Both the position numbers and the translations under genes were made by a program. A DNA stretch of 64,000 nucleotides from Flaviaestuariibacter sp. (lineage in GTDB: Bacteria > Bacteroidota > Bacteroidia > Chitinophagales > Chitinophagaceae): contig JAOQAI010000013.1 in the NCBI GenBank assembly GCA_025963645.1, positions 186,001 to 250,000 on the forward strand, in the 5' to 3' direction. Under the pieces are notes generated by a model. It was not told the origin of the DNA and ran no database searches. It saw nothing but the letters and a program-made list of their open reading frames with translations. Positions 35,241-60,742 of this stretch are shown here, piece after piece. Each line of letters starts with the position of its first letter. The stretch's first letter is position 1.

Positions 35241-35888
35241 TTACACCTTATAATACCCATGCTTAATGGCGAATACGGCAATACCCGCAATATTCTTGGC
35301 GCCTGTTTTTTCAAACACCCGTTCCCGGTAGCCCTCTACTGTCCGAACGCTCATGTTTAGTTCTTTTGCAATATCGGTATTTAGCTTTTCCTGGCAGATC
35401 AGCTGCATGATCAGGGTTTCTTTCTCCGTGAACTGGGTTCTTGGCTTGGTACGGTAAGGATTGAATTTGCTCATGCCTATTAGGCAGGCAAGCTTGGCGG
35501 TGGTGGCCGCGCAGAAATAAGTGCCTCCGTGGTATACGGCGTGTACGGCCTCTGCTAATTCATTTTTATTCGTATTCTTCAATAAATACCCCTGGGCGCC
35601 TGCCTCCAGCATATCAATAACCAGGTGGTCTTCGTTAAACATCGTGAGGGCAATAACACCGATATGCGGGTATTCCTGTTTGATTTGCCGGGTGGCTTCT
35701 ATGCCATCCATCAGGGGCATCATGATGTCGGTAATAACGATATCGGGTTCAAGGTCCCGCACTTTTTGCAGTAGTTCTTTACCATCCTGGGCTTCACCCG
35801 CTATCTGTATCTGCTCCTGTTTGCGGAGCAATACATGAAACCCTTGGCGAATAAGCTCGTGGTCATCGGCAATAATGATCTTAATCAT
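35241..35888 (-). CDS. LuxR/NarL-type response regulator, signalling cassette 1
   Basis: 215 aa. N-terminal receiver with acidic pocket (IIADDHELIRQG), the phospho-acceptor aspartate in DIVITDIMMPLMDG and the lysine in YLLKNTN. The C-terminal NarL/LuxR helix-turn-helix reads TEKETLIMQLIC and SVRTVEGYRERVF. It ends KNIAGIAVFAIKHGYYKV, nearly identical in pattern to the regulator of cassette 2 (58355-59008). The start is the ATG at 35888 because the longer frame starts with TTG. Partner is the kinase upstream. Confidence 0.9.
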   Translation of the reverse strand: MIKIIIADDHELIRQGFHVLLRKQEQIQIAGEAQDGKELLQKVRDLEPDIVITDIMMPLMDGIEATRQIKQEYPHIGVIALTMFNEDHLVIDMLEAGAQGYLLKNTNKNELAEAVHAVYHGGTYFCAATTAKLACLIGMSKFNPYRTKPRTQFTEKETLIMQLICQEKLNTDIAKELNMSVRTVEGYRERVFEKTGAKNIAGIAVFAIKHGYYKV

Positions 35889-35890
35889 GG

Positions 35891-36646
35891 TCAACTCTTT
35901 TCTATAGGTATGGTAAATAAATATTGGGTGCCCTTACCGGGCTGCGAAGCGATTTTTACCTTTCCGCCGATAAGGCCCACACGGCTACGCAGGTTATTTA
36001 ATCCCAGGCCTTGTCCCGCTGATTCTGTATCGTCATAATGAAACCCGGTACCATCGTCCTCGCACAGGATCTGTAGGCTGGTGTCTGTCGTCGTTATGCG
36101 GATGGCAAGCCGCTTTGCCTTGGCATGCTTTAAAGTGTTTTGGATCACCTCCTGCAACATCCGGAAGATCGCAATGCTTTGCGCTTTTTCAATGGGAAGG
36201 GTAGCCGGCAGGTACAGGTCCATCTGCAATGGGGTGCTTTGGTTTAGCAGTGCGGCAAGCTCTTCCAGCGCCTCTCCCAAACCCTTTCGCGATAGCGAGC
36301 TGGGCATCAGGTCGTGTGCAATGCTGCGTACTTTATCTACCGCGTCGTTCAGGCGGGCGGCCGAATCCTGGAGAACAGCCCGGTCATCCTCATCTGCGGC
36401 ATCCACGCTCTCTATCTGGAATTTTATAAAGGATAAAGTCGGTCCCAGGTCATCATGCAGGTCGGCTGCCATACGTGTCCTTTCTCTTTCCAGGGTGGTC
36501 ATTTCCGTCAGCAGGTTTTGTTGTTGCAGGTGCAGGTTGCGCCGTTGCTGCTTCACAATGGAGGCGGCAAAAAAAATGAGGATGCTGAAAATCACGGCAC
36601 CTGTGATCAGGACAGCAAAATAAATCTGGGTCTGGCGGGCATCCAT
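35891..36646 (-). CDS. Sensor histidine kinase, HisKA_3 type, signalling cassette 1
   Basis: 251 aa. One N-terminal transmembrane helix (FAVLITGAVIFSILIFFAAS), then the dimerisation domain with the phospho-acceptor histidine in RTRMAADLHDDLGP. The ATP domain has NTLKHAKAKRL, EDDGTGF and GLGLNNLRSRVGL. There is no sensor domain outside the membrane, so signal input probably comes from the membrane protein upstream, whose gene overlaps by 40 bp. It ends 2 bp before the response regulator. Confidence 0.9.
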   Translation of the reverse strand: MDARQTQIYFAVLITGAVIFSILIFFAASIVKQQRRNLHLQQQNLLTEMTTLERERTRMAADLHDDLGPTLSFIKFQIESVDAADEDDRAVLQDSAARLNDAVDKVRSIAHDLMPSSLSRKGLGEALEELAALLNQSTPLQMDLYLPATLPIEKAQSIAIFRMLQEVIQNTLKHAKAKRLAIRITTTDTSLQILCEDDGTGFHYDDTESAGQGLGLNNLRSRVGLIGGKVKIASQPGKGTQYLFTIPIEKS

Positions 36647-37257
36647 ACAACAGCTAAAGCATAAAGGAGGTTAGCAAATAAGTTGGCATAACGTAAAATT
36701 CGTTGAATATTTGAGGCAAACGCGGAACTTTCATTCAAACCATAAAGCCAGAAAATTTCCGTCAGGATCGCTAATGTAAAATAGATGATAAAGGCGATGC
36801 AGATCAAAAAAATTGAGTTCGTCAATAAGTGAATGCTCTCATTAACGATAAGACGGTTTAGCATGCTTATGCTAAATAGCACAATAAAAAAGGAATGAGC
36901 TACGATGAAGTACGAACAAAATCTGTTGATGCTTGAAAAAATGAGTATCTCTGAAAGCCAACCGGCACTCAATAGGGCAAGGAGTATAGGAAACAAGTGT
37001 TTTTGCCCGAAAAGTTTCAGGTTATTGAATTGCCAGGTAATAATTAGCGCTTGTAATAAAAAGAAAATATTGTTGTTAATCACATTATTCCGGATAGTAT
37101 AGGCCAACAGCACACTTAAGCACTCATTAAAAAAGGACAACCATATGAATAGTAAAAACGGCTGGTAAGGCTGATCGATTTTTTTAAAACGGATCAAACC
37201 TGTAACAGCCGCAATGACAATTGAAAAAGTACAAATAAGCGTGATGGTATAATTCAT
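36607..37257 (-). CDS. Polytopic membrane protein of the signalling cassette, copy 1
   Basis: 216 aa, six to seven hydrophobic helices. The start is ATG at 37257 (the longer frame begins with TTG). Its counterpart in cassette 2 (59706-60359) shares ALIITWQF/ALLINWQF, FIIYF and the end VVWMPARPRFI/FLWIPMKPRYI. The C-terminus overlaps the kinase start by exactly 40 bp in both copies. Function unknown; a sensor or input module for the kinase is likely. Confidence 0.75.
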   Translation of the reverse strand: MNYTITLICTFSIVIAAVTGLIRFKKIDQPYQPFLLFIWLSFFNECLSVLLAYTIRNNVINNNIFFLLQALIITWQFNNLKLFGQKHLFPILLALLSAGWLSEILIFSSINRFCSYFIVAHSFFIVLFSISMLNRLIVNESIHLLTNSIFLICIAFIIYFTLAILTEIFWLYGLNESSAFASNIQRILRYANLFANLLYALAVVWMPARPRFILLS

Positions 37258-37296
37258 CAAAGCTAAAATAATGAACTATCGGTTTTGGCAATCAAA

Positions 37297-37650
37297 CTAT
37301 GAGTTCAAAGCCGAAGAGGGCGGGCAATCCGATGGACATCGGGCCCCTGTTTCAATGATCTGCTCATCGGTAGCGCTCGACTTTGCCGGTATCATATCCG
37401 CATCGTTCGAATCAACCCCTACAATGATCGCATGCACCTTATACGAGTTGTCCATACCAAAGTAGATACGTAAACCCTGGCAATCGTTCTGCGCCAATAC
37501 CGTATCAAACGCAGCCCGGTCAAAGGTCTCGCAGATTGCTAGAATATTCTGTCCGCGAAAAGCGGTGGCTAGCACATTTTCTTTCTGCTGCCGGTAAGTG
37601 GTGGTCATCGTTACCGCATCGGCTAATGGAATAAAGTGATTGGTTGGCAT
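37297..37650 (-). CDS. Conserved small protein heading signalling cassette 1
   Basis: 117 aa, no signal peptide. Compared with the 122-aa copy at 60374-60742 it shares NHFI-x-LA, the block CETFDRAAFDT, GLRIYFGMD, VHAIIVG and the C-terminal RCPSDCPP followed by S-x-LN. The two conserved cysteines flanking the prolines suggest a binding or redox tail; this is inference. No known family recognised. First gene of the operon on the minus strand, with CCGTGC-type palindromes upstream. Confidence 0.65.
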   Translation of the reverse strand: MPTNHFIPLADAVTMTTTYRQQKENVLATAFRGQNILAICETFDRAAFDTVLAQNDCQGLRIYFGMDNSYKVHAIIVGVDSNDADMIPAKSSATDEQIIETGARCPSDCPPSSALNS

Positions 37651-37714
37651 ACTGCTTAAAAATTTTATTTGTTTGGAAAGAGGGCAATTTGCAGGGCTAT
37701 TACGGTAATAAAAA

Positions 37715-37751
37715 GGGTGCTGCCACGGTAAAAAAATCCGTGTTGATACGG
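37715..37751. promoter_or_regulatory. CCGTGC-type palindromes upstream of cassette 1
   Basis: GGGTGCTGCCACGG at 37715-37728 (on the minus strand CCGTGGCAGCACCC) and CCGTGTTGATACGG at 37738-37751 are 14-bp inverted repeats of the type CCGT(G)...(C)ACGG, 23 bp apart. On the minus strand the first is followed by CTTTTTATT, as at the VKOR gene. They are 65-100 bp upstream of the gene at 37650, so they probably control cassette 1. Confidence 0.55.
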
Positions 37752-37839
37752 TTGTTTTTCTAATGGATTTGTTTTATAGCGTTTACTTTTTTAACACGGT
37801 TCACGCATAGCCCTTTATCCCTGTATTAGGCCTCCTTTA

Positions 37840-37875
37840 TCGTACTGGCACGGTCATTTTTCCGTGCTGGCACGG
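37840..37875. promoter_or_regulatory. Tandem CCGTGC palindromes, 22 bp apart
   Basis: TCGTACTGGCACGG (37840-37853) and the perfect CCGTGCTGGCACGG (37862-37875) have starts spaced exactly 22 bp, two helical turns. The second directly touches the -33 TTG at 37876. This layout suits a dimeric regulator acting on the promoter of the HExxH lipoprotein. Confidence 0.6.
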
Positions 37876-37905
37876 TTGTTTTTATAAGGGGCGGCCATAA
37901 AATTG
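37876..37905 (+). promoter_or_regulatory. Promoter of the HExxH lipoprotein gene
   Basis: -33 TTG at 37876-37878, 19-base spacer, -7 TAAAATTG at 37898-37905 (one mismatch to TAnnTTTG). The ATG lies 38 bases further on. Confidence 0.55.
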
Positions 37906-37943
37906 TGCTGTCAATCACAGGTCTATTGTCTAATACCAAAACT

Positions 37944-42815: not shown

Positions 42816-43823
42816 CTAATTACAATAACTGTGATCCACATACACCTTATTGCCGCTTGAGGTTAAATAATAACACCCTCCCCTCGGCCCAGTAATATAA
42901 TTTCTGGCGGAGCTATAAACCTTTTTTCCGGAGCTGCTTTGCTTCGGGCTGGAACTCCGGGGCGCCACTTCGGTTGCAGAAGCAGTTTTTTGTTCAGCAG
43001 GTGCATAATCATAATTCGGCTCATATTTATAGTACCGCCTGCTTTTATAAGTAGTGAGGTCGGCTTGCGTGGCTTGTATCTTGTTTAGATCATCTTCCAG
43101 TTCATCACGTTTCATAAAACCTTCTACATCCTCCAGGGTCACCTTTACATAGCCGGTGCTCTCGCTATAGCCTTTGATCTGTACATAGCTTCCTTTATAC
43201 ACCCTTCCCTTGGTCTGGCTTTTCTCCGATGGCTTTTCTTTTAGCAGGATGCTCTCCTTCGCTACAAAATGATAGCCTTCCATGCGCTGCGCATAAACCA
43301 GGCTGTCCGCCTGCTTTTGCCGAATAGCAGTCAGGCTGTCACTAATTCTTTTTTGCTCTTGCCGGGCCATCAGGTCTGCGCTGTCTTTAGATCGGCGCTC
43401 TTGCAGGTTCAGTGCTTTTTCATAACCCTTGTAGGCTGCCAGCTCTTTTTCATAATAATGTACAGGCCAATCCTTATCACTGCTTTTGATAAAAGCGATG
43501 TCATCATTATAGGAGGGTATATCAACATGCTTGGCTGCCTTGTAAAGGGCACCATAAGCATCCAACTGCTCCTGCACCCGAACAATAAAGCCCTTTACCG
43601 GGCTAATGATCTTTTCTTCTGCTACACGCAATACAGTTATCTTATTGCCATCGATTTCTGTTTCAGAAAGCGAGGCTTGAATGATCTTAGCTTTCTTCTT
43701 ATCCTGTAATCCACCCAGCAGGTTTTTGCCAAGCCCCGCTCCGGCTTGTAGCACCTGTGTGTTTATTTGCGCGGAAGAGGATAAAAAGTTCAGGCACAAA
43801 TAGAATAAAATGATATAGCGCAT
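42816..43823 (-). CDS. SH3-domain secreted protein with a C-terminal basic adaptor-like motif
   Basis: 335 aa from ATG at 43823. Signal peptide (YIILFYLCLNFLSSSA). A coiled central region is followed by an SH3-like domain: HFVAKESILLKEKPS, then YKGSYVQIKGYSESTGYVKVTLEDVEGFMKR. The end, ITGPRGGCYYLTSSGNKVYV followed by DHSYC, matches the PBCV-basic-adaptor type motif (GPRGGCYY...NKVYVDHSYC). A CCGTGC-type palindrome lies upstream. Function unknown. Confidence 0.65.
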   Translation of the reverse strand: MRYIILFYLCLNFLSSSAQINTQVLQAGAGLGKNLLGGLQDKKKAKIIQASLSETEIDGNKITVLRVAEEKIISPVKGFIVRVQEQLDAYGALYKAAKHVDIPSYNDDIAFIKSSDKDWPVHYYEKELAAYKGYEKALNLQERRSKDSADLMARQEQKRISDSLTAIRQKQADSLVYAQRMEGYHFVAKESILLKEKPSEKSQTKGRVYKGSYVQIKGYSESTGYVKVTLEDVEGFMKRDELEDDLNKIQATQADLTTYKSRRYYKYEPNYDYAPAEQKTASATEVAPRSSSPKQSSSGKKVYSSARNYITGPRGGCYYLTSSGNKVYVDHSYCN

Positions 43824-43874
43824 AGTGTTGGTCAGTTTGGGTGCATATATAAGGCTTTTATGTCGTCCAAAAAA

Positions 43875-43888
43875 GGGTGCCAGCACGG
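43875..43888. promoter_or_regulatory. CCGTGC-type palindrome upstream of the SH3 gene
   Basis: GGGTGCCAGCACGG on the plus strand (CCGTGCTGGCACCC on the minus), 52 bp before the ATG at 43823. On the minus strand it is followed by CTTTTTTGG, then TATATATG (one mismatch to a -7 box) about 16 bases later. It is the same 14-bp site as those near the cassettes. Confidence 0.55.
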
Positions 43889-43973
43889 TTTTCTATTTCG
43901 AAAATAAAACTCACATTAGCGCCCTTTAGCTCATCGCTATATTGCCACTAGCCAAAACTGCATTATACTAAAT

Positions 43974-44276: not shown

Positions 44277-44326
44277 GGTGTTAGCCATCCTAACTAATTT
44301 TTTTAGTAATTTTAACCGTGTTAGTA

Positions 44327-45451
44327 ATGAACTCCCAAACAAATCTGCTGGATCATTCGGAAGCTAAGGTGCTGCTATATAGTAGATATTTAGCTATTTA
44401 CCTGAATGTATTAAGCCGTAGTGCGATAAAGAAAATTTACTTGTTTGACTTGTTTTGCGGTGAAGGTATCTATGAAGATGGAGGGAAGGGAAGTCCTATT
44501 GCAGCATTGGAGTGTATTAAAAATCACTATTATGCTAATGGCGAGAAATGCCCAAATTTATTTGTGACATTTAATGATTCTGAAAAGTCGAAGATTGATA
44601 AAGAAAAGTATAAGATTGAACGAGTGGAGGGATTTGCTAAAAATATCTTTACTCCGCCAAATGTTAAGGTCGGTTATTCCAAAATCGATTATAAGGACTT
44701 GGTTCCTAAAGTAATTGAAAGAACAAATAAGTTGGCTTCAGATGAAAGAGCTTTGATCTTTATTGATCCTTGGGGTTATAAAGAAATTGATCCGCTTGAA
44801 CTGAAAGGACTTTTAGAGAATGGCAAGACAGAATTGCTTCTCTTCTTGCCTACTTATTTTATGTCACGCTTTGCTAACAAATCCAAGAAGGATTTAGATT
44901 ATAAAGGTGGTGAAGCATTACGAAAGTTCATGGGTAAGCTGTTTAATGGTTTGGATAAAGTGCCTCATATTGAAAATCAAAAGAAATTTATTTACCTGAT
45001 TCAGCAGCAGTTTAAAGCTTATCTGGGTGTGGAATATGTAGACTCTTTCAAGATTGAAAGAGACAATGATAACAATTGGTTTTGTGTTTTCTTTTTCACC
45101 AATAATAAAAAAGGATTTCACAAAATGCTGGAAGCCAAATGGAGTATCGACAAGAAAAAAGGTGCTGAATTTAAAATAGGTGATGAGGTAAAAGTGGAAA
45201 TGTTTGATGAAGCGCAGATTATAGCATATGATCAAAAAGTACTGGAGTTTTTGTTACGAAATGAGGGCGCTACGAATCATGAACTGGTCGACTTCGGTTT
45301 AAGTCATAACTTTTTACCTAAACACACTAAGTCAGAATTAGATAAAATTAAAAAGGAACGTCCGATAGAATTGATTTCATTAGATGGTAAGCCTGCTAGC
45401 AGCTACTATTTAGGAAACGATGAGAGAACCGTCAAAATAAAAATTCTTTAG
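44327..45451 (+). CDS. tcmP: Three-Cys-motif partner protein TcmP
   Basis: 374 aa from the ATG at 44327. DLFCGEGIY (residues 41-49) and FIDPWGYKEIDPLEL resemble a methyltransferase-like fold with glycine-rich loop and D-P motif. The next gene encodes the three-Cys protein, with a 2-bp gap, exactly as the TcmP name implies. Their biochemical role is unknown; the pair is sporadic and found in genome islands, so mobile or defence roles are inferred. Confidence 0.85.
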   Translation: MNSQTNLLDHSEAKVLLYSRYLAIYLNVLSRSAIKKIYLFDLFCGEGIYEDGGKGSPIAALECIKNHYYANGEKCPNLFVTFNDSEKSKIDKEKYKIERVEGFAKNIFTPPNVKVGYSKIDYKDLVPKVIERTNKLASDERALIFIDPWGYKEIDPLELKGLLENGKTELLLFLPTYFMSRFANKSKKDLDYKGGEALRKFMGKLFNGLDKVPHIENQKKFIYLIQQQFKAYLGVEYVDSFKIERDNDNNWFCVFFFTNNKKGFHKMLEAKWSIDKKKGAEFKIGDEVKVEMFDEAQIIAYDQKVLEFLLRNEGATNHELVDFGLSHNFLPKHTKSELDKIKKERPIELISLDGKPASSYYLGNDERTVKIKIL

Positions 45452-45453
45452 TA

Positions 45454-46182
45454 ATGGCACAATCAAGTATCGAATGGACCGAAATGACCTGGAACCCCAC
45501 CACCGGTTGCGACAAGCTCTCTGCTGGCTGCAAGCATTGCTATGCCGAAGTGATGGCAAAGCGTCTGCAAGCGATGGGCATAGAAAAATACAAAGATGGC
45601 TTTAAGATACGAACGCACGAATCGGCTTTACATACTCCCTATACTTGGAAAGGGCAGCGGGTGGTCTTTGTGAATTCCATGAGCGACCTCTTTCATAAAA
45701 AAGTGCCGCTGGAGTTCATCCAAAAAGTGTTCAAGACGATGAACGAAACACAGCATGTCTACCAAGTGCTCACTAAGCGGGCTGACCTTCTCCTAGATTA
45801 TGACAAGCAGTTAAAATGGGCACACAATATTTGGATGGGCGTGTCGGTAGAGAACTCAAAAGTGATGCACCGCATAGACCTGCTTCGGCAAACAGCTGCC
45901 AAAGTAAAATTCCTTTCTTGCGAGCCGCTGATAGGTCCATTGCCTAACATAAACTTGGAAGGTATCGATTGGGTAATAGTCGGTGGTGAAAGTGGTCGTA
46001 AGCCCCGCCGGATGGATGTAGATTGGGTACTGGATATTCAACAGCAATGCGAAGAGGCAGGAGTTAAGTTCTTTTTTAAACAATGGGGGGGTACAAATAA
46101 AAAGAAAACGGGTAGAGAGTTGAATGGCAGAACATACGATGAAATGCCAAGTATTGAACAATTAGAGGCAGTCAAGCTTTGA
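45454..46182 (+). CDS. Phage Gp37/Gp68 family protein with a three-Cys motif
   Basis: 242 aa. GCDKLSAGCKHCYAE holds Cys19, Cys26 and Cys29, spaced C-x6-C-x2-C, as in radical-SAM-like [4Fe-4S] proteins. IEWTEMTWNPTTG and VIVGGESGRKPR are other hallmarks of the DUF5131 group. It acts with TcmP. The exact reaction is not known. Confidence 0.87.
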   Translation: MAQSSIEWTEMTWNPTTGCDKLSAGCKHCYAEVMAKRLQAMGIEKYKDGFKIRTHESALHTPYTWKGQRVVFVNSMSDLFHKKVPLEFIQKVFKTMNETQHVYQVLTKRADLLLDYDKQLKWAHNIWMGVSVENSKVMHRIDLLRQTAAKVKFLSCEPLIGPLPNINLEGIDWVIVGGESGRKPRRMDVDWVLDIQQQCEEAGVKFFFKQWGGTNKKKTGRELNGRTYDEMPSIEQLEAVKL

Positions 46183-50836: not shown

Positions 50837-52195
50837 ATGAAACATCATTTGGCTGTTATGGTCATCTTGTTGCCCTTACTGTCCGTTGCCCAAACCGGAA
50901 AGGGGCAGGTAGAGCCGCTCACCATTGGGCAGGCTTTGCCGCCGGAGCTTCGGTCCCGTTTGCTTCGGGTCGCTGCGCCCCTGCGTAGCACTGATCTGCA
51001 AAAAGACCTGCTTATACTGGATTTCTGGAGCCCTTCCTGCGGCTCCTGCCTCACTGCTTTTCCGCTTATCAATAGCCTCAGCCGTCAATACGGGGCCTGG
51101 CTGCAGGTCGTGGCCATTACCGAAGCCCCGGCCGGGCGGGTCCGTTCCGTATTCGCGGGTCGCAAGGCGCTGCAAGGATTGGGGCTTCCTTCGGTTACAG
51201 ACGATACGCTTTTCCGTCAATACTTTCCGCATGTCATGGTGCCCCACCTCGTTTGGATCGATGGCGGCGGCACCATCCGCGCCATCACCGGTGGCGAGTA
51301 CCTCACCGTGCCCAATATCGTCAAGGTCCTCCGTCACGGCTTTCCGCCGGGCTGGCCCGTTAAGCGCGATGTGCAGGATTGGGATCCCGCCAGGCCCCTC
51401 CTTGTCGCCAACAATGGCGGCGTCGATGGTCGCTTTCTTTATCGCTCCCTCATCACGCCGCATATCACCGGCCTCCCCGCCCGTATGGAGCGGGTGATGG
51501 ATACCGCCGTTGGCACCGTTCGCCTCGTCGCCACCAACGCCACCGTCCCCGAGCTTTATGCCCTTGCCTTTCCGGGAGCTGCCAACTGGCCGCGGTCCCG
51601 GCGCCTTTGGGAAGGCGTCACGCCGCAAACTTTTATCCCACCTACCGATCCCGATAGCCTCGCCGCCTGGCGGGATGCTAACCTCTATTGCTACGAGCTC
51701 ACCCTGCCTGTGGGCAGGGAAGGCGATATGAATAGGACTTTAGCGCAGGACCTCGATCGCTTCTTCAGCCTGCGGGGCCGCATCGAGCGCCGTTCCCTAA
51801 CCTGCTCTGTCCTGGTCCGCACCGATACGGCTGTTAACGTAAAGAGCAGGGGCGGCAAGCCCGCCCACAACCTCGGCGGCGAGGGACCCAAATTTCTCCG
51901 CAACCGCCCGCTTTCCATGCTGCTGTCCTACCTCGGGGCCCATAGTCTGCTGCCGGTTATCGATCAAACCGGCGTCCGTGGCGGCGTCGATCTCGAACTG
52001 CCACCCAACCTCTACGACAGCTCCACCCTCGCCAAGGCCTTGGCTGCGAAAGGGCTCGCCCTGGTTCAAAAGGTCTGCGATATCGACGTCTTTGTCCTCT
52101 CCGCCACCCCGTCCGGCCCAAAGCCACTCGGAAGACCAGAGGTACAGAAACCAAAAGCCGCAGATCGCTTACCCGTCGCTACAAACACGGAGTGA
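50837..52195 (+). CDS. TlpA-like thioredoxin-fold protein preceding SusC
   Basis: 452 aa. Signal peptide (HLAVMVILLPLLSVAQ). A thioredoxin fold follows with FWSPSCGSCLTAFP, Cys68-x2-Cys71. The C-terminal ~250 residues are a second domain with LPVIDQTGVRGGVDLELPP, similar in pattern to DUF3738-like domains; this part of the call is tentative. TlpA-SusC-SusD operons are a frequent Bacteroidota arrangement. Base composition is much more G/C-rich than the island. Confidence 0.8.
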   Translation: MKHHLAVMVILLPLLSVAQTGKGQVEPLTIGQALPPELRSRLLRVAAPLRSTDLQKDLLILDFWSPSCGSCLTAFPLINSLSRQYGAWLQVVAITEAPAGRVRSVFAGRKALQGLGLPSVTDDTLFRQYFPHVMVPHLVWIDGGGTIRAITGGEYLTVPNIVKVLRHGFPPGWPVKRDVQDWDPARPLLVANNGGVDGRFLYRSLITPHITGLPARMERVMDTAVGTVRLVATNATVPELYALAFPGAANWPRSRRLWEGVTPQTFIPPTDPDSLAAWRDANLYCYELTLPVGREGDMNRTLAQDLDRFFSLRGRIERRSLTCSVLVRTDTAVNVKSRGGKPAHNLGGEGPKFLRNRPLSMLLSYLGAHSLLPVIDQTGVRGGVDLELPPNLYDSSTLAKALAAKGLALVQKVCDIDVFVLSATPSGPKPLGRPEVQKPKAADRLPVATNTE

Positions 52196-52230
52196 CCGTT
52201 GATGCGCTGCTTATCGCAGAAGGCTGGTTG

Positions 52231-52275
52231 TCACTCTGAGCCCAGTTTCCCCTGAGCCTTGACGAAGGGAAGGGT
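52231..52275. repeat. Dispersed intergenic repeat (TGTCA...GAAGG type)
   Basis: TGTCACTCTGAGCCCAG followed by TTGACGAAGGGAAGG is a relative of the TCATCCTGAGC...GAAGGA repeats at 57563 and 58293. These are dispersed intergenic elements. Confidence 0.5.
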
Positions 52276-52339
52276 CTTATAGCACCTCTGCCACCTAAAC
52301 AACCCCAAACCCCAAACTCAAAAACCAAACACACTTAAT

Positions 52340-55300
52340 ATGAAACAGCTTCTATTCCTCCTCCTCCTGGCGCCCTTCTTGGGCATAGGCCAAACCGTTA
52401 CCGGCAAGGTTACTACCCACACCGGCAACCCCATTCCCGGTGCCACCGTCACCAACCGTACAATAAGTACTCAGACCGCCACTACTGGCGCCTTCACTAT
52501 TGCCGCCTCCCTCGGAGACACCCTCCACATCACCCACACCGGTTATGAACCGGCTGTTGCTGTCATCCGTCAAATAGTATCCGTTATCTCCATCACCCTT
52601 ACCTCTGCCGACCAAACTCTCGCCGCCGTCACGGTCGCCACTGGCTACCAGCGCCTGCCCCGAGAACGCGCCACCGGCTCCTTCTCTGTCGTGGGTGAGG
52701 GCCTGCTCAACCGCTCCGTCACCACCGACGTGTTGTCGCGCCTCGAAGGCACGGCCCCCGGCCTCTTCTTCGACAAGCGCCTGCCTGGTGCCACGCTTAG
52801 CATACGGGGGCGCAGCACCATTTATGCGGGCCGCGATCCGCTGGTCATCGTCGATAACTTCCCCTATGAAGGCGACATCGCCAATATCAACCCCGCCGAT
52901 GTCGAATCCGTTACCCTTCTCAAAGACGCCGCTGCCGCTTCCATCTGGGGCACCCGTGCCGCCAATGGCGTCATCGTTATCAGTACCCGGAAGGGGCGGG
53001 TAGGGGCGGCGCCTTCGCTGTCCGTCACCGCCAACGCCACCGTGCAGGATAAGCCGGACCTTTTTGCCCTTCCGCAAATGAGCGCCGCCTCCTTTATCGA
53101 AGTGGAGCGCTTCCTCTTTGCTAAAGGGTTTTACAACAGCCAGGAAACTTCTCCTAACAGGCTTCCCCTCTCACCCGTAGTGGAGCTGCTCATTCGGGCT
53201 CGTTCAGGCGCCTTATCGGCTGCGGCGCTTGAAGCCGAACTGGTCAATTTGTATACGGTCGATGTCCGCCGAGATATGGATCGCTATCTCTATCAGCGCG
53301 CCATCAGGCAGCAATACGCCGCCACGCTTACAGGTGGAGGCACGGCCCATGCCTATGGCCTTTCCTTGGGTTATGATCGAAATTGGGATAACCTGGCAGC
53401 TACTTTTGGGCGCTACACTGCTCGCCTTTCCAACTCCTGGCAATGGAGCCGCCGGGGTTCACTGGAAGCGGCCGTGGTTTATACGCAAACAGCCGCCCGA
53501 ACAGGTAGGCCGTCTTACAGTAACATCACACCGGCCGCTGCCAAAGACCTCTATCCCTATGCTAGGCTCGCCGATAGCGCGGGCAATGCCCTGCCGGTGC
53601 TCAAAGACTACCGTGGCTCCTACATCACCGCCGCCAAGGCCGCGGGCCTGCTCGATTGGAGCTACATACCTTTGGAAGATTATAAGCATACCGATAACCG
53701 CACCGCATCCCGCGACCTCGTGCTCAATCTCGGTGCCACCTATAAGCTCACCAGTGCACTATCCCTCGAAGCCCGCTACCAATACGAAGGAGCCAATACG
53801 GAGGCGGGGAACCAACAGGGGCTCGGCAGCTACAACACCCGGAATACCGTTAATCGTTATACCCAGTCCGTCGGTGGCACGCTTTCCTACCCGGTTCCGG
53901 TAGGCGCCATCCTCGATCTCGAAAGCAGCACCCTTTCAGCCCATGCAGGCCGGGGCCAACTGTCCTACAACAAGGCATGGAGTAAGGGTTCGCTTACCGC
54001 TATTGCAGGGGGCGAGGTCCGGGAGTCGGCTCTCTCTGGTTCCTTCAACCGTGTCTATGGCTACGATGGTGAGATTCTTACCTACACCAATGTAAACTAC
54101 GATTCATCCTATCGGCTCTATTACAACAATAGCCTGCGGTCCACGATTGCCCCTTCCACCGGCTTCCGCGAAACCGTCAACCGCTATGTATCTTCCTTCG
54201 CCAATGCCGCTTATACGTGGCGGGGGCGCTATACCGTCTCGGCTTCCCTTCGCCGCGATGCCTCCAACCTCTTTGGCGTGGCCACCAACCAGAAAGGCGT
54301 GCCGCTGTGGTCGGCAGGCGCTTCCTGGTCACTGGATAAGGAGTCCTTCTACCGTTGGTCTGCTGTGCCCCGCCTGAAGCTGCGCGCTACCTATGGGCAT
54401 AATGGTAATGTCGACAATAGCCTCTCTGCTTATACAACCATTTCTTATTTCAATTCCGGCAATTCGTTTATCACCGGGGCCTATGCGGGGGTCAGTCGCC
54501 CCGCTAATCCCGATCTCCGCTGGGAGCGGGTCGGTACCCTCAATGCGGGAATCGATTTCGAAGGGCGCATTCTCACGGGCTCGGTCGAATATTACCGCAA
54601 AGAGGCAGCCGATCTTATTGGCGATGCCCCTGTCGATCCTACGGTGGGCTGGCCATCCGGAAAGCTGCGGCGCAATATTGGTGCTATGATAAACCGGGGC
54701 GTGGATGTTGAGTTGACAGCCAGGGTGGTGAACAGCGCTTTTGGTTGGTCAGTTACCCTCCTCGGCTCTTGGAACAGCGCCCGGCTTACGGAATACGATA
54801 GCATTAGTTCGGCAGCTTCTGCCTACCTAACGTCGGGCATTTCCACGGTTCCGGCAGTGGGCAAGCCGCTCAATAATATTTTCAGCTATCCTTGGGCAGG
54901 CCTCGACGCCGCAGGCGATCCCCTCGGCATTGTCAACGGGCAGCCTTCCAAAGATTACCTGGCCATCAGCCGCACACCGGTGTCCGGTTTGGTCTATCAT
55001 GGCTCCGCTACCCCTGTCGTATTTGGCTGGCTGCGCAACACGTTCAATTGGCGGGGAATCGAGCTGTCCGCTAACCTGTCCTATCGCTTTGGCTACTACT
55101 TCCGCCGCGCCTCCGTCAACTACAATAACCTTTTTAATAGCTGGCGGGGGCATAGTGATTATGATAGACGCTGGCAGTCACCGGGCGATGAAGCGTTCAC
55201 TTCTGTTCCGTCCATGGTCTATCCGGTCAACACCCGCCGTGAGTCCTTCTATGAAAACGCCTCGGTCTTGGTCGAAAAAGGCGATAACATCCGTCTCCAC

Positions 55301-55495
55301 GACATCCGCTTGGGATATACCTTGAAAAAGGCAAAGGCGGGCTGGCTTCCCGTAAGGTCAGTGCAGTTCTATGGGTTTGCCCAGAATATTGGCATACTCT
55401 GGCGGGCCAATAGGCACGGTCTCGATCCCGACTACTATGCCACCAACCTTCCCGCACCCCTGGCTCTCACGCTTGGACTTAAAGCCACTTTTTAA
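52340..55495 (+). CDS. SusC/RagA-type TonB-linked outer-membrane transporter
   Basis: 1051 aa. A signal peptide (QLLFLLLLAPFLGIG) is followed by a carboxypeptidase-regulatory-like domain (VTGKVTTHTGNPIPGATVTN), a plug domain (RGRSTIYAGRDPLVIVDNFP, LKDAAAASIWGTRAANGVIV) and a large beta-barrel. It imports a bound nutrient, glycan or peptide, with the SusD partner encoded next; substrate unknown. Confidence 0.92.
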   Translation: MKQLLFLLLLAPFLGIGQTVTGKVTTHTGNPIPGATVTNRTISTQTATTGAFTIAASLGDTLHITHTGYEPAVAVIRQIVSVISITLTSADQTLAAVTVATGYQRLPRERATGSFSVVGEGLLNRSVTTDVLSRLEGTAPGLFFDKRLPGATLSIRGRSTIYAGRDPLVIVDNFPYEGDIANINPADVESVTLLKDAAAASIWGTRAANGVIVISTRKGRVGAAPSLSVTANATVQDKPDLFALPQMSAASFIEVERFLFAKGFYNSQETSPNRLPLSPVVELLIRARSGALSAAALEAELVNLYTVDVRRDMDRYLYQRAIRQQYAATLTGGGTAHAYGLSLGYDRNWDNLAATFGRYTARLSNSWQWSRRGSLEAAVVYTQTAARTGRPSYSNITPAAAKDLYPYARLADSAGNALPVLKDYRGSYITAAKAAGLLDWSYIPLEDYKHTDNRTASRDLVLNLGATYKLTSALSLEARYQYEGANTEAGNQQGLGSYNTRNTVNRYTQSVGGTLSYPVPVGAILDLESSTLSAHAGRGQLSYNKAWSKGSLTAIAGGEVRESALSGSFNRVYGYDGEILTYTNVNYDSSYRLYYNNSLRSTIAPSTGFRETVNRYVSSFANAAYTWRGRYTVSASLRRDASNLFGVATNQKGVPLWSAGASWSLDKESFYRWSAVPRLKLRATYGHNGNVDNSLSAYTTISYFNSGNSFITGAYAGVSRPANPDLRWERVGTLNAGIDFEGRILTGSVEYYRKEAADLIGDAPVDPTVGWPSGKLRRNIGAMINRGVDVELTARVVNSAFGWSVTLLGSWNSARLTEYDSISSAASAYLTSGISTVPAVGKPLNNIFSYPWAGLDAAGDPLGIVNGQPSKDYLAISRTPVSGLVYHGSATPVVFGWLRNTFNWRGIELSANLSYRFGYYFRRASVNYNNLFNSWRGHSDYDRRWQSPGDEAFTSVPSMVYPVNTRRESFYENASVLVEKGDNIRLHDIRLGYTLKKAKAGWLPVRSVQFYGFAQNIGILWRANRHGLDPDYYATNLPAPLALTLGLKATF

Positions 55496-55574
55496 AGGAG
55501 TCCTTTGTGAACCTTCGCGCCTTCGGGTTTTAGTGACTCAAATTCAAAATTTCAAATTTCAAATCATAAATTCC

Positions 55575-56915
55575 ATGTCACGTATCATCATACTTCTGCT
55601 GCTCCTCACCGGCATCTCCTGCAAAAAATACCTCGATCTCCGTCCTGATAAAAAGCAGGTCGTTGCCCACAGTCTCAAAGACTACAGCGCCCTCCTTGAT
55701 GGTGCCCGCTTCATCAATATCGCCTACCCCGATGCCGGCGAAATTGCCTCTGACAATCTCTGGCTCACCGCCGTCGATTATGCGGCCCTTCCCGACCGCA
55801 CGGGCCAGAACCTTTACACTTGGGGCACCGATGTATTCAACGACAATGAAACCAACGACTGGACGATACCTTACCAGGCCGTCCTTTATGCCAATACGGT
55901 GCTGGAAGGATTGGGAGAGATAGTTCCCGACACTGCGTCCACGGGGGAGTGGAACCGGCTGAAAGGGGCGGCTCTCTTTTTCCGCGGCTTGGCTTATTAC
56001 AACCTGGCGCAGCAGTTCTGTGCGCCCTATAACAGCGCCACTGCAACAACGGATCAGGGCATCGTCCTGCGGCAGACAGCAGCTATTTCAGAAGTTTCGG
56101 TACGGGCTTCCGTAGCGGCTACTTATACGCAGATAGAAATGGACTTAACGGAAGCGGCTGCCTTGTTACCCGTAGCGCAGCTCTATAAAACCCGTCCTTC
56201 TAAAGCCGCTGCTTTCGCGGCATTGACCAGGATGGCACTCAGTCGCGAAAGCTATGTCGAGGCAAAGCGGTGGTGCGATAGTGCGCTCACTTACAACAAC
56301 AGGTTGCTGGACTATAATACCCTCAACCCTTCGGCAGCCAATCCGGTGCCCCGCTTTAATGAGGAAGTGTTGTTTCATGCTACGGGAGGCCGCGGCATGC
56401 TCGTACCGCCTGTGGGCAAGGTAGACTCCCTTCTGTACCGGTCTTATGCCGCCAACGACCTGCGTCGGTCTATCTTCTTTAAGGCAGCGGGCACAGGCGT
56501 AGGCTTTTATGGCAGCTACGATGCCAGCACCTATCTTTTTATGGGCCTGGCTACAGACGAAGTGTATATAACCAGGGCGGAGTGCTTGGCTCGTGGTGGC
56601 AATGTTTCCGCAGCTATGACCGACCTGAATGCGGTATTGATAAAGCGTTTCCGGGCAGGTACTTTCATTCCCTATACTGCCGCCAATGTACAGGAAGCAT
56701 TGGATAAGATTATTGCGGAGCGGCGCAAGGAATTGTTGTTTCGGGGCCTTCGCTGGACCGACCTCCGCCGGTTGAATAGGGATCCACGCTACCGGGTTAC
56801 GCTGAAGCGGGTGATAGGCAATCAGGTTTATACATTGGAGTGGAACAGCCCGCGCTATATTTTCCCTATCCCCGAGAATGTGATCAGGCGTTCCGGTATT
56901 CCGCAAAATCCTTAG
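55575..56915 (+). CDS. SusD/RagB-type nutrient-binding lipoprotein
   Basis: 446 aa from ATG at 55575. The leader ends in LLTGISC, a lipobox. A helical SusD fold follows, with YLDLRPDKKQ, LKGAALFFRGLAYYNLAQQF and ERRKELLFRGLRWTDLRR, the family's C-terminal hallmark. It works with the SusC protein as a lid. No polysaccharide hydrolase is adjacent. Confidence 0.92.
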   Translation: MSRIIILLLLLTGISCKKYLDLRPDKKQVVAHSLKDYSALLDGARFINIAYPDAGEIASDNLWLTAVDYAALPDRTGQNLYTWGTDVFNDNETNDWTIPYQAVLYANTVLEGLGEIVPDTASTGEWNRLKGAALFFRGLAYYNLAQQFCAPYNSATATTDQGIVLRQTAAISEVSVRASVAATYTQIEMDLTEAAALLPVAQLYKTRPSKAAAFAALTRMALSRESYVEAKRWCDSALTYNNRLLDYNTLNPSAANPVPRFNEEVLFHATGGRGMLVPPVGKVDSLLYRSYAANDLRRSIFFKAAGTGVGFYGSYDASTYLFMGLATDEVYITRAECLARGGNVSAAMTDLNAVLIKRFRAGTFIPYTAANVQEALDKIIAERRKELLFRGLRWTDLRRLNRDPRYRVTLKRVIGNQVYTLEWNSPRYIFPIPENVIRRSGIPQNP

Positions 56916-56932
56916 TGCAGTAAGAAAAAATA

Positions 56933-56962
56933 AAAGGCGAACGGGTGTTACCGTTCGCCTTT
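56933..56962 (+). terminator. Terminator after susD
   Basis: AAAGGCGAACGG pairs with CCGTTCGCCTTT (12 bp) around a six-base loop. Confidence 0.85.
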
Positions 56963-56982
56963 AAATCAGCCTTCAGATGATT

Positions 56983-57282
56983 TTATTGCCGTTTCTTGAT
57001 ATTGCCTGGCTCCACATCTTCAAGGGCTTCCAGTTGCGGTTGGGTGGGCTCATTCGGGTCGGGCAGCACAAAGGCGGCGCAACGTACTCCGGCACCGCCG
57101 CAGTTAGGTTCGCCACCTGTTGACAGTTGATAATACGCCGGGTCATTGATATGGCTGTCATCGGTTCCGTTATACATGAACCACTGTTCCTGCAAAGCGG
57201 GTTTGGCCGGACGGAAAGCGAAAAGGGAAATGCTCAGTACGGCAACCAATGCCAGGCTTAGCAGTAAAGAAAAACGTTTCAT
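56983..57282 (-). CDS. DUF6520-like small exported peptide
   Basis: 99 aa. A signal or anchor helix (FSLLLSLALVAVLSISLFAF), then an extended part with EQWFMYNGTDDSH and CGGAGVRCAAFVLP, two cysteines. The pattern W-x-Y-x-G ... CG...CA fits the DUF6520 family of Bacteroidota, recalled from memory. Function unknown. Convergent with the SusD gene. Confidence 0.6.
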   Translation of the reverse strand: MKRFSLLLSLALVAVLSISLFAFRPAKPALQEQWFMYNGTDDSHINDPAYYQLSTGGEPNCGGAGVRCAAFVLPDPNEPTQPQLEALEDVEPGNIKKRQ

Positions 57283-57299
57283 AAAATTGGATTGCTTTT

Positions 57300-57850
57300 A
57301 TAAGCGCAAAAAGCAAACGAAAAACTTTAAGGATAAATAATACGCCTACTCGTTTTTACAGGTTTTCGGCTACGCCTGTTTATTGCAATAAAAATTTGGT
57401 CATTTATTTTCACCTATCAACCTCCCTTCCTTTCAACAGTCGATATTTCTTCTTCCTTGTTCATCTGTTCAATTGCCTCTTCACTAAAACCTTGAATATT
57501 GAACATTGAGCATTGAATATTCTTTCCTGCTTCTCACTCGCAATAGACTATTCATTATTCACTCTCTTGTCATCCTGAGCTCCAACGAAGGACACTAAAA
57601 AAGGAGCGCGGCTCAGGCAATGCTGGCAGCGGCGAAGCAGCAGCCACCCGGCCGGCTCCCGTACCGTTAGTGTTTATGGTAGGCAAGGAAGCTTACCATA
57701 GCAAAAAGAAGTTTGAAATCAGGATTCATGATAGTAACATTTATCGCCGCTGCTACTATGGTTTTAAATAACAGTATAAAGTTCAGCCGGTAAATAGCCC
57801 TCGCCAAATGGAAAGGATATGCCAGGCGGCCAAAATGGTATGCTGCTTGG
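57300..57850. repeat. Gene-free stretch with dispersed repeats
   Basis: No gene. It holds the GAATATTGAACATTGAGCAT palindrome-like repeat near 57493-57525, and CTCTTGTCATCCTGAGC with TCCAACGAAGGAC at 57563-57593. It also has an inverted repeat around 57674-57699 (TATGGTA...TACCATA). These are intergenic elements, not coding. Confidence 0.55.
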
Positions 57851-58201
57851 CTAAAATTCGAAACTGCTTTTGCGTACTTGTCCGGCCGTACGCCCCCAGT
57901 AAAGCTTAAAAGCCAGCATAAAGTTTTTAGTGTACCGGAAGCCTACCGCAAAAGAAATTTCCTTAATGGGTTGGTCCGTGTGCCGCAGCAGGAAAAGCGC
58001 CATCGACATACGGCAGGCGGCTATAAACCGCATGGGTCGCTGGTCCAGAAAATGGATGCAGCCTTCGTTAAGTTTATGGGCATTCATGCCGCTGCGCCGG
58101 CAAAGGTCCGTCATCGTAAAAGAGGTGTGGAGATGGTGCTCGATATGGTGCGCTAATAGCTCTATCTGCTTCTTTTCTGGTGTGGTAAAACGGTAACGCA
58201 T
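57851..58201 (-). CDS. Stand-alone AraC-type DNA-binding domain
   Basis: 116 aa from ATG at 58201 (MRYRFTTPEKK). It is only the AraC DNA-binding half: FTMTDLCRRSGMNAHKLNEG then ISFAVGFRYTKNFMLAFK. There is no ligand domain. Flanked by two related repeats (57563 and 58293), so it may have come in with them or be a remnant. The longer frame (58261) would add 20 residues with no clear motif. Confidence 0.75.
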   Translation of the reverse strand: MRYRFTTPEKKQIELLAHHIEHHLHTSFTMTDLCRRSGMNAHKLNEGCIHFLDQRPMRFIAACRMSMALFLLRHTDQPIKEISFAVGFRYTKNFMLAFKLYWGRTAGQVRKSSFEF

Positions 58202-58292
58202 AAAACCGGTTAAAAGGTTTAAATAATGCGCCGCTGCAATAAAGAAGGATAAGGCGGGCACCCGGGCCCACGCTTATCTGGTGTCTTGCATT

Positions 58293-58323
58293 TCTCTTGT
58301 CATCCTAAGCTCCGGTGAAGGAT
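58293..58323. repeat. Second copy of the CTCTTGTCATCCT repeat
   Basis: CTCTTGTCATCCTAAGC with TCCGGTGAAGGA, about 30 bp, differs from the copy at 57563 at a few positions. The two copies are direct and flank the AraC gene at 57851. Confidence 0.6.
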
Positions 58324-58354
58324 CTCTAGTCCCATTAAACCCCAAACCATATCC

Positions 58355-59008
58355 TCATATCCGGTAAAAGCCATTCTTAATGGCATAGATCACGATGCCC
58401 GCCACGTTCTTCGAGCCCGTTTTATCCATGATCCGGTCGCGGTATTTTTCCACGGTCCGGTGCGTAAGGCTCGTCAGGTCGGCTATCTGCTTGCTCGCAT
58501 GTTGGTCGCAGATAAGCCGTATGATCTCGATCTCTTTCTCACTGAACAGCGGAACGGTCGGGTACAGAAGTGGGCTGCGGCTCTCCGCGATCAGTTTCGA
58601 CAGCCGCAGGCTGGTTTGGTTGCAGAAATAATTATAGCCGTCATACACGCTCCGCACTGCTTTCAGCAATTCCGTTTTCGAGGTGCTTTTCAACAGGTAG
58701 CCGCTGGCGCCTGCCTCCAGCATATCCACGATCAGTTGTTCCTCGTTGAACATGGTGAGCGCGATCACTTTCACATCCGGGGCCCGCTCCCGCAAGGCCT
58801 TCGTAGCGGTTATGCCGTCCATTTGCGGCATTTGAATATCGGTGATCACCACATCCGGCCGGCAGCCTGCCACGCGTTGCAGCAGCTGTTCTCCGTTAGC
58901 CGCTTCCCCTACGATGCGCACTTCCTCTTCCTGCCCGAGCAGCAAGTGCAGCCCTTCCAGGAAGAGCGGGTAATCATCGGCAATAACGAGGCGCAGGGGT
59001 TGTATCAT
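58355..59008 (-). CDS. LuxR/NarL-type response regulator, signalling cassette 2
   Basis: 217 aa. Receiver with IADDYPLFLEG, the phospho-acceptor in DVVITDIQMPQMDG and lysine in YLLKSTS. LuxR helix-turn-helix SEKEIEIIRLIC and THRTVEKYRDRIM. It ends KNVAGIVIYAIKNGFYRI, matching the regulator of cassette 1. The ATG overlaps the kinase stop by 4 bp. Confidence 0.9.
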   Translation of the reverse strand: MIQPLRLVIADDYPLFLEGLHLLLGQEEEVRIVGEAANGEQLLQRVAGCRPDVVITDIQMPQMDGITATKALRERAPDVKVIALTMFNEEQLIVDMLEAGASGYLLKSTSKTELLKAVRSVYDGYNYFCNQTSLRLSKLIAESRSPLLYPTVPLFSEKEIEIIRLICDQHASKQIADLTSLTHRTVEKYRDRIMDKTGSKNVAGIVIYAIKNGFYRI

Positions 59009-59745
59009 AAGGACAGGGGTATTTCAAAAAAATAATCGGTGCCCGCAGGCGTAGTGGTGCATTGCAGCTGCCCGCCGGCGATCTCCGCACGGTTATGCAG
59101 GCTGGCCAGACCGATGCCTTTGTCCGTTGCGGCGGTAGCAAAGCCGCACCCATCGTCTTTGCAAGAAATGTAAAGATGTCGTCCTTGTGCTTTTAAATGA
59201 AGATCGATTATGCGGGCGCCGGAGTGTTTTACCGCGTTATGCACGGTCTCCTGCACCAGGCGGTACACCAGCAGGCGCTGGTCTTTCGACAAGGGCTGGT
59301 TCACAGTATAGGTCAGTCGGAACTGGATCGGTGAAACGGCCTGGTATTGGTCAATGAACTCCTCCAGCGCGGTTTGCAGTCCCTTTGTCACAAGGGCCTT
59401 TGGTGTCAGGTTGCGGGCAATGCCACCCAGCCGTTCTATCACGGTGAGTATATTGTTTTCAGCCTTTTGCAGGTAATCGTGTTCTCCGGCCGGTTGCTGC
59501 GCTGCTTTACTGATCTGGATGCGCGTCACCGATAGCAGGGGCCCCAGTTCATCGTGCAGGTCATGTGCAATACGGGTGCGTTCCTTTTCCAGCAGCCCGA
59601 TCTCTTGGATCAGCAGGCTTCGCTTCCGGGCAAAATGTTGCCGTTGGATGCGCACCACCGAAATGGCAAAATAAGTGATCACGGCACCAAGCACTAGGCA
59701 GGTGATCAGGACTGCATGATATATCGTGGTTTCATAGGGATCCAT
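59005..59745 (-). CDS. Sensor histidine kinase, HisKA_3 type, signalling cassette 2
   Basis: 246 aa. One membrane helix (HAVLITCLVLGAVITYFAIS), RTRIAHDLHDELGPLLS with the phospho-acceptor histidine, then NAVKHSGARII, CKDDGCGFA and GIGLASLHNRAEI. Same architecture as the kinase of cassette 1, with no extracytoplasmic sensor; the two share the unusual N-terminal layout. Confidence 0.9.
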   Translation of the reverse strand: MDPYETTIYHAVLITCLVLGAVITYFAISVVRIQRQHFARKRSLLIQEIGLLEKERTRIAHDLHDELGPLLSVTRIQISKAAQQPAGEHDYLQKAENNILTVIERLGGIARNLTPKALVTKGLQTALEEFIDQYQAVSPIQFRLTYTVNQPLSKDQRLLVYRLVQETVHNAVKHSGARIIDLHLKAQGRHLYISCKDDGCGFATAATDKGIGLASLHNRAEIAGGQLQCTTTPAGTDYFFEIPLSL

Positions 59746-60359
59746 AAAAAAGCCAGTGCATAAATCAGGTTAGTGAACAAATTGATATAAGAAAGGATCT
59801 GGTAAATACCCACCCTGAAAGATTGACTTTGCGTGAGCCCGAATAGCCAGAAAGTTTCCACCAGAACCGCATAGATAAAGTAAATAATCAACCCCATGCA
59901 AATAAGAAAACGGGAATTCCGTAGCAGGCTTCTCGATTCCCGGAAAATAGTTCGGTTGATGAGGGTAATGCTCATAAGCACGATAAGAAAAGAATAGCCG
60001 ATTATAAAATACGAAAAGAAACGCAGCAGGCTTTGCTGCAGGGCCAGTTCGCAAAGCCACACGGTTACCATTAGGCATTGCAGCCTGTGATAGCCTTGGG
60101 GGTGCTTTTCGAAAAGCTGCCAGCGGCTGAATTGCCAGTTGATTAATAGAGCCTCAAAGAGCGAGAAAAGGTTATAGCTGGCGGCATTCGAATACCCCGC
60201 TTTCAGTAGCAGTATGCTGAGGATTTCATGCAGGAAGCCCAGCGTCACCAGCAGGAGAAAAGGAAAGAAGGCTGGATCCGACTTTTTATATCGGACCCAG
60301 CCTATCAGGGCGCTAAAGCCTACCGAAAGGCTGAACAGGGCATTGACAAAAAAACTCAT
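59706..60359 (-). CDS. Polytopic membrane protein of the signalling cassette, copy 2
   Basis: 217 aa from ATG at 60359 (MSFFVNALFSLSVG); the longer frame to 60416 overlaps the preceding gene and is not needed. Six to seven helices, homologous to the protein at 36607-37257. Its end overlaps the kinase gene by 40 bp, as in cassette 1. Likely the input module for the kinase. Confidence 0.75.
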   Translation of the reverse strand: MSFFVNALFSLSVGFSALIGWVRYKKSDPAFFPFLLLVTLGFLHEILSILLLKAGYSNAASYNLFSLFEALLINWQFSRWQLFEKHPQGYHRLQCLMVTVWLCELALQQSLLRFFSYFIIGYSFLIVLMSITLINRTIFRESRSLLRNSRFLICMGLIIYFIYAVLVETFWLFGLTQSQSFRVGIYQILSYINLFTNLIYALAFLWIPMKPRYIMQS

Positions 60360-60373
60360 AAAAAAGGTGGCGC

Positions 60374-60742
60374 TTAAATATTTAGGGGCGACTCCGGCGG
60401 GCAAATGTCGGGACATCGGTTACCCTTCTCGATAATTTCTTCCACGGGTTCTGCCGCCGAAGAAAGGCCGGAAGTGTTGGCGGTGGTCAGCATGTCCTCT
60501 CCGGCTTCATTCGTGCCTACAATGATAGCATGAATTTTTAGTGCTTCGTCCATGCCGTAATAGATCCGTAGCCCGGTGCATCCCGGCTTCGATAAAAGCG
60601 TGTCAAAGGGAGCACGGTCAAAACTTTCACACAGCGGTAAGATCCCGTCACCTTCAAATTCGGGTTTTAAAATGGTTTGGTAGGATGTGCGGTACTGTCC
60701 GGTCATCTGTTCCGCCAGGGCAAGAGAAATAAAATGGTTCAT
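60374..60742 (-). CDS. Conserved small protein heading signalling cassette 2
   Basis: 122 aa, homologue of the gene at 37297-37650. Shared motifs: NHFI-x-LA, CESFDRAPFDT, GLRIYYGMD, IHAIIVG and the C-terminal RCPDICPP followed by S-x-LN. No family recognised. First gene of the minus-strand operon. Confidence 0.65.
   Translation of the reverse strand: MNHFISLALAEQMTGQYRTSYQTILKPEFEGDGILPLCESFDRAPFDTLLSKPGCTGLRIYYGMDEALKIHAIIVGTNEAGEDMLTTANTSGLSSAAEPVEEIIEKGNRCPDICPPESPLNI

Follow-up and report, generated by a model that had tools for sequence, protein, structure and literature searches.

A 64,000-nucleotide stretch of a Flaviaestuariibacter sp. genome (Bacteroidota; Chitinophagaceae; contig JAOQAI010000013.1, positions 186,001 to 250,000), here called the window, carries two copies of a four-gene cassette that encodes, in this order, a small protein (S), a membrane protein (M), a histidine kinase (K) and a response regulator (R). 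Both lie on the minus strand, cassette 1 at 37650-35241 and cassette 2 at 60742-58355. A sequence-only reading of this DNA had reported the gene order, a 40-bp overlap of M and K in both copies and four motifs common to S1 and S2 (FDRAxFDT, GLRIYxGMD, HAIIVG and RCPxxCPP); the coordinates confirm the order in both cassettes, the overlap is exact in both and is accompanied in both by a K/R overlap of 4 bp, and the motifs are present. Its description of the kinases as lacking an external sensor and of S as undescribed agrees with the domain content of K (HisKA_3 and HATPase_c only) and with the absence of a convincing match to S in any library searched. The genes, with lengths in amino acids (aa), are:

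37297..37650, minus strand: S1, small protein of cassette 1, 117 aa, conserved tail RCPxxCPPxSxLN
36607..37257, minus strand: M1, membrane protein of cassette 1, 216 aa from ATG, seven transmembrane helices in the model
35891..36646, minus strand: K1, HisKA_3 histidine kinase of cassette 1, 251 aa, 40 bp shared with M1
35241..35894, minus strand: R1, response regulator of cassette 1, receiver and GerE (LuxR/NarL type), 217 aa from TTG, 4 bp shared with K1
60374..60742, minus strand: S2, small protein of cassette 2, 122 aa
59706..60359, minus strand: M2, membrane protein of cassette 2, 217 aa from ATG, start set by alignment with relatives
59005..59745, minus strand: K2, HisKA_3 histidine kinase of cassette 2, 246 aa, 40 bp shared with M2
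58355..59008, minus strand: R2, response regulator of cassette 2, receiver and GerE, 217 aa, 4 bp shared with K2

The longest open reading frame (ORF) of M2 begins at 60416, as against the chosen ATG, which gives 59706-60359. Identity between the two cassettes is 51% for S, 45% for M, 35% for K and 50% for R.

Conservation and descent of the cassette

The source genome (2.57 Mb, 63% complete) has six S genes, and M, K and R come after every one of them; one genome of the same genus has one S gene and another has none. Among 147 genomes of the family, S was found in 56 at E<=0.001. M is adjacent to 54 of the 61 S genes with E<=1e-6 and to only 3 of the 13 weaker S matches; conversely, S adjoins 55 of the 58 M genes of at least 100 bits, always directly 5', and one of the three M genes lacking an S neighbour (in genome G035) does have one by a wider S profile. 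The order S-M-K-R was found at 45 of 45 distinct Chitinophagaceae-type loci read in the DNA, the window's two included (these come from sets of 20 and 30 loci, and the order was seen in all of each); irregular among them are L103, with a kinase split over two ORFs, and L115, with an S cut at the contig end. The order in the window is not due to chance, since it recurs at all loci of both sets and, across the family, S and M pair up almost one to one.

Loci fetched for long S proteins have all four genes in 18 of 20 cases, the exceptions being L148, which stops at a contig edge, and L152, where S and M were not re-found; at 20 remoter S loci (17 of them outside the family) both K and R are present at 16. 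S and M occur twice before one kinase in L117, extra S-M copies are also present in L122, and extra M copies in L120 and L135. In a draw across the phylum, S was found in 31 of 395 genomes at the sensitivity used. A scan able to pick up close relatives only gave 30 named loci, labelled as Chitinophagaceae genera, Chitinophagales, Sphingobacteriales or Bacteroidetes, except for one metagenome-assembled genome labelled Williamsia; Terrimonas ferruginea, Niabella drilacis, Parafilimonas terrae and Lacibacter luteus are among the names. The sequence-only reading had taken co-occurrence of S with the kinase-regulator pair in other genomes as its own test; the outcome was favourable, S occurring together with M, K and R in different genera and, in a diverged version, over the phylum as well. 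No account of the cassette was found in the literature searched, as judged from listings and with most subscription journals outside the coverage.

The M/K overlap is exactly 40 bp from ATG in 26 of 48 close cassettes, including all six of the source genome; 19 others overlap by 28-55 bp, in the same frame, when read from an in-frame ATG, and 3 lack such an ATG. The shared bases code for the end of M (LWMPxK...) and the start of K (MDAxET...), and in relatives the length slides by threes. Sequence comparison thus marks the equal 40-bp overlap as an inherited arrangement of common descent; an independent origin is ruled out by the shared coding stretch sliding by threes. In a tree of M, K and R from 79 cassettes, the nearest relative of cassette 1 is L037 (70% identity) and that of cassette 2 is L036 (78% identity), both on contig C1 of the same genome as the window. 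Because these two pairs lie far apart in the tree, the window's cassettes are old paralogs; the tree rules out a recent duplication, and the earlier description of the cassette as duplicated is misleading in a genome with six S genes.

Kinase and regulator

K1 and K2 contain HisKA_3 and HATPase_c above curated cut-offs, placed, by our reading, after one N-terminal hydrophobic stretch; R1 and R2 contain receiver and GerE domains above cut-offs, and their genes adjoin those of the kinases. By domain content K and R have the features of HisKA_3/NarL-type two-component systems. With these two domains only, K must receive its input from elsewhere.

Small protein and membrane protein

By these sequence searches, S and M are two undescribed protein families. 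Neither S1 and S2 nor M1 and M2 have a Pfam or NCBIfam family above chance level or a PHROGs match; one by one against Pfam, 31 S proteins gave two single-member marginal matches and 56 M proteins gave no family at E<=0.01. Against the PDB, S gave two chance-level matches only (E 0.1) and M gave none.

In the S model the core is well ordered, the linker poorly so (block mean 60), and the tail is ordered again (81-88); in 31 sequences this tail ranks with the best-conserved regions. Compared with known folds, the S model has no match at E<=0.001, and a known fold for S was set aside. An N-terminal signal or anchor is predicted in 23 of 85 S proteins by a hydropathy rule, with two ORF extensions corrected by eye; of these, 20 belong to the family and are lipoprotein-like, and three come from elsewhere. 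Among 19 long S proteins examined, 13 fit a strict lipobox, and the rest have, by eye, a cysteine after the hydrophobic stretch. Since these N-termini are found in 23 of 85 proteins and the signal-bearing or leaderless state must have changed at least three times on the M+K+R tree, the site of action of S is probably outside the cytoplasm.

The M model is of high confidence (predicted local distance difference test score, pLDDT, 95; predicted template modelling score, pTM, 0.90) and shows eight helical elements, the first two of which we read as one bent helix, giving a predicted seven; the charged loops of M suggest, by our reading, an N-terminus outside and a C-terminus inside. The 50 rows listed by Foldseek comprise 49 seven-helix rhodopsins, G protein-coupled receptors (GPCRs) or GPCR-like proteins and one zinc transporter. 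TM-scores of the rhodopsin/GPCR-type matches, normalised by M, are 0.30-0.57, and the match is not significant because the best E among the matches listed is 0.068; the likeness of the model to these proteins is one of shape, not proof of kinship. In microbial rhodopsins, a lysine in helix 7 binds retinal; helix 7 of M1 (178-204) lacks one, which rules out M as a light receptor of this kind. At every locus read, M and K are encoded by different genes, and none of the listed M matches falls within an open frame of more than 280 codons. M may sense or relay the signal, as the sequence-only reading had it, and the seven-helix model lends this support.

Operator-like repeats and putative targets

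Direct repeats before 45 S genes are strongest at a spacing of 22 bp (z 4.2), followed by 21 bp (3.5) and 23 bp (2.2). In the window, and all putative, the sites are:

37694..37751, minus strand: three CCGT-type operator-like sites 23 bp apart before S1 (cassette 1)
37841..37876, minus strand: a second pair of operator-like sites in cassette 1, at a spacing of 22 bp
60798..60831, minus strand: two copies of GTCGTGGAAA at a spacing of 22 bp, an operator-like pair before S2 (cassette 2)
61401..61434, plus strand: tandem operator of the cassette-1 type, upstream of the export operon at 61465

The promoters of S1 and of the S gene in the sister cassette L037 both contain CCGT-type sites spaced 22-23 bp apart. 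A strict tandem pattern drawn from these two promoters occurs four times in the 2.57-Mb genome (reversed-pattern control 0; chance expectation about 0.08 by our own arithmetic, from base counting): before S1, before the S gene of L037, at L036:10703 before a plus-strand gene, and at window position 61401 before the gene at 61465. The L036:10703 and 61401 sites have a longer pattern in common with S1; a genome search with it recovers those three sites, as it must by construction (0, 0 and 2 mismatches), plus two sites with 3 mismatches (control 2). The GTCGTGGAAA pair is found in the source genome before S2 and otherwise only before the S gene of the sister cassette L036 (3 mismatches); it also precedes S in three other genomes. 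Because of the 22-bp-spaced repeats before S genes, R is likely to bind in tandem and to regulate the operon that encodes it.

To judge from the sequence matches, two more operons of the source genome, a bacteriocin-type export operon and an RHS-like one, are probably under the control of the cassette-1 type. The former extends over window 61465-64000 and continues in L143:1466-9453; it encodes a C39/VKOR/thioredoxin protein, two small peptides whose leaders look, by eye, to be of the double-glycine type, a C39-ABC transporter and, below cut-off, an HlyD-like protein. Two of its genes in the window are:

61465..63129, plus strand: peptidase C39, VKOR and thioredoxin protein, first gene of the putative target operon
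63216..63440, plus strand: small peptide, double-glycine-type leader by eye, no Pfam or NCBIfam match

The operon behind the L036:10703 site opens with a secreted protein that has no family match, followed by genes read as RHS-like. This large operon lies beside the sister of cassette 2, at L036:10788-19001 and L142:1-16191 (contig C1), and encodes one 2971-aa protein with DUF6443 and a Tlde1 match below cut-off.

A weak cassette-1-type site (3 mismatches) at window 43863-43889, before the gene at 42816-43886, may mark a further target; the likely ATG start of that gene gives a secreted protein. Operator matches with two mismatches at C1:262, C1:239660, C15:11816 and C18:51054 (control 1) were left out of account; the matches at C1:262 and C15:11816 are an identical run of 36 bases, within a 184-bp stretch that is 84% alike between the two places.

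Divergence of the four proteins

Mean identity over 119 pairs, which are not independent (one consists of the two S-M pairs of the single L117 cassette), is 43% for M, 47% for S, 59% for K and 70% for R, so that M and S differ more. With K and R accounted for, S and M distances still correlate when all cassettes are taken together (partial r 0.41, a value that 0 of 300 permutations reach), and also in lipoprotein-type cassettes, but not within leaderless ones. Coevolution of S and M is not taken as proof of contact. Diversifying selection on M is not claimed: in ten chosen pairs, synonymous sites are largely saturated where the pairs are diverged, and the very close pairs have no excess pointing to it.

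Genomic neighbourhood

Neighbours recurring among the 45 loci are SusD-like (22), SusC-type (19), AraC-type (19), TlpA-like (13) and MauE/DoxX-like (10) genes, the labels TlpA, MauE and SusD resting on weak matches or recall. The background density of SusD is about one per 159 kb (PF07980 counts in 8 chosen genomes), and the excess at cassettes is only approximate because the PF07980 model may miss the SusD type there. Cassette 2 has a Sus/AraC-type neighbourhood and cassette 1 does not:

57851..58261, minus strand: AraC-type regulator downstream of cassette 2, a neighbour seen at 19 of 45 loci
52340..55495, plus strand: SusC/RagA outer-membrane protein, convergent with cassette 2

Window 50837-58261 as a whole holds TlpA-like, SusC and SusD-like genes convergent with a small secreted protein and the AraC-type regulator, a set also found at L036 and L038. 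Export or weapon genes are not general neighbours among the 45 loci, and no gene recurs directly before S on its strand by neighbour clusters, with no one-by-one scan for ComQ domains. A protein of about 250 aa (MAKQKGIIKL...) that has no family match accompanies the cassette at 10 of the 45 loci, together with two small hydrophobic ORFs (examples: L143:10274-11029, L038:11222-11977 and L048:6735-7562). Directly downstream of cassette 1 lies a gene for a choloylglycine-hydrolase family protein (CBAH; 33887-34927). A 66-aa ORF divergent from S2 (60971-61171) has no NCBIfam or Pfam match, and similar small ORFs lie near the cassette at five other loci. Farther off, window 44318-46182 holds two genes that presumably resemble a three-Cys-motif partner protein and a phage Gp37/Gp68-type protein.

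Discussion

We put at about an even chance the reading that S-M-K-R is a four-component, self-regulated sensory operon with S and M on the input side and K and R on the output side. M would be a seven-helix receptor-like protein in the inner membrane, and S its partner outside the cytoplasm, either a ligand or the stimulus-binding part. A change at the point of S-M contact would be passed within the membrane to K, which has one predicted membrane helix and no sensor domain; K would phosphorylate R, and R would bind tandem sites about 22 bp apart and so control its own operon and a few targets.

Several observations weigh against this reading. A signal or anchor is lacking in 62 of 85 S proteins, the window's two included (L115, also among them, lacks its N-terminus); S1, S2 and the 59 other leaderless S proteins with the N-terminus in view, which would have to be exported, have neither an export signal nor a known export route, and this lack of a signal in most S proteins is the main unexplained point. 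In leaderless cassettes the partial r for S and M distances is 0.09, with 51 of 300 permutations as high. Four of the 20 remoter loci depart from the pattern, L122 with K only and L120, L128 and L129 with neither K nor R nearby; the latter three hold S and M (L120 with three M genes), which shows that an S-M pair need not be linked to a kinase. As to the operators, S1 and L037 supplied the strict tandem pattern and the L036 stretch was already in view, which leaves the 61401 site as the only wholly new one, and in the same 45 promoters spacings of 12, 14, 16, 31 and 32 bp likewise reach z 2.0-2.6.

The number of leaderless S proteins, S1 and S2 among them, and the missing S-M distance signal in leaderless cassettes would both be expected if S in those clades were a cytoplasmic modulator of K or R, a feedback inhibitor or adaptor, with M alone as sensor and the lipoprotein-like S as a derived use. 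We consider this rather unlikely: S has moved at least three times between the leaderless and the signal-bearing state, next to the same M, K and R partners, and this is easier to understand if S always acts outside.

S might instead be a secreted cell-to-cell signal, a protein pheromone with M as receptor, in a form of quorum sensing with several channels per cell. The order of signal gene, receptor, kinase and regulator resembles comX-comP-comA (PMC4008528), and self-regulation, a bacteriocin-type operon as a likely target, two operator types in one genome and the faster change of M and S than of K and R would all fit; set against these, the S tail is strongly conserved, unlike the variable ComX described there, many S proteins are lipoprotein-like and hence would not diffuse, no processing site or exporter was recognised, and weapon genes are not general neighbours at the 45 loci. 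This makes quorum sensing quite unlikely. Equally improbable, in our estimate, is a hormone-like circuit in which an exported S is the agonist of a stand-alone seven-helix M driving a separate K and R, as cell-to-cell signalling in Bacteroidota that switches on bacteriocin-type and RHS-like genes, with paralogous channels in one cell kept apart by different operators. That S stands outside the signalling line as a co-transcribed effector, the first gene being simply an output of the operon, is very unlikely given the near one-to-one adjacency of S and M in the family and its conservation over the phylum.

Under the preferred reading of a sensory operon, the S and M families would gain a defined place, on the input side of a kinase-regulator pair that recurs across Bacteroidota and six times in one partial genome. 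The model yields concrete predictions of partners, operators and targets and, if true, would provide an example from nature in which a seven-helix receptor and its histidine kinase are separate proteins.

Comparison with known systems

LiaFSR with LiaX (PMC10269926) resembles the cassette in its HisKA_3-type kinase, LuxR/NarL-type regulator, separate membrane protein, modulating surface protein and self-regulation. LiaF, however, has a C-terminal extracellular domain, PF09922, that is absent from M (no Pfam family in 56 M proteins), and LiaX is a larger two-domain protein, unlike S; the match of K1 to the LiaS model is far below cut-off. In ComQXPA, as described in PMC4008528, the receptor helices and kinase form one protein, ComQ modifies ComX, ComX is variable and the loci are found only in Firmicutes. 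The two systems are alike in a signal gene directly before the receptor, a HisKA_3 kinase, a LuxR-type regulator and characteristic gene overlaps, and differ in that here M and K are separate genes and the S tail is conserved; the neighbour clusters showed no gene recurring in the place of ComQ.

RocA, according to an extract of PMC6635533, has seven transmembrane segments and a cytoplasmic domain and binds and modulates a separate kinase, CsrS, in the membrane. M would likewise be a seven-segment membrane protein acting on a separate kinase, an action proposed for M and described for RocA; M, however, ends soon after helix 7, and the passage on RocA mentions no small partner protein. Rhodopsins and GPCRs have the seven-helix shape in common with the M model, whereas helix 7 of M1 lacks the retinal lysine. 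By analogy, then, a cassette that fails defining features of LiaFSR-LiaX and of ComXPA alike appears to work like one or the other.

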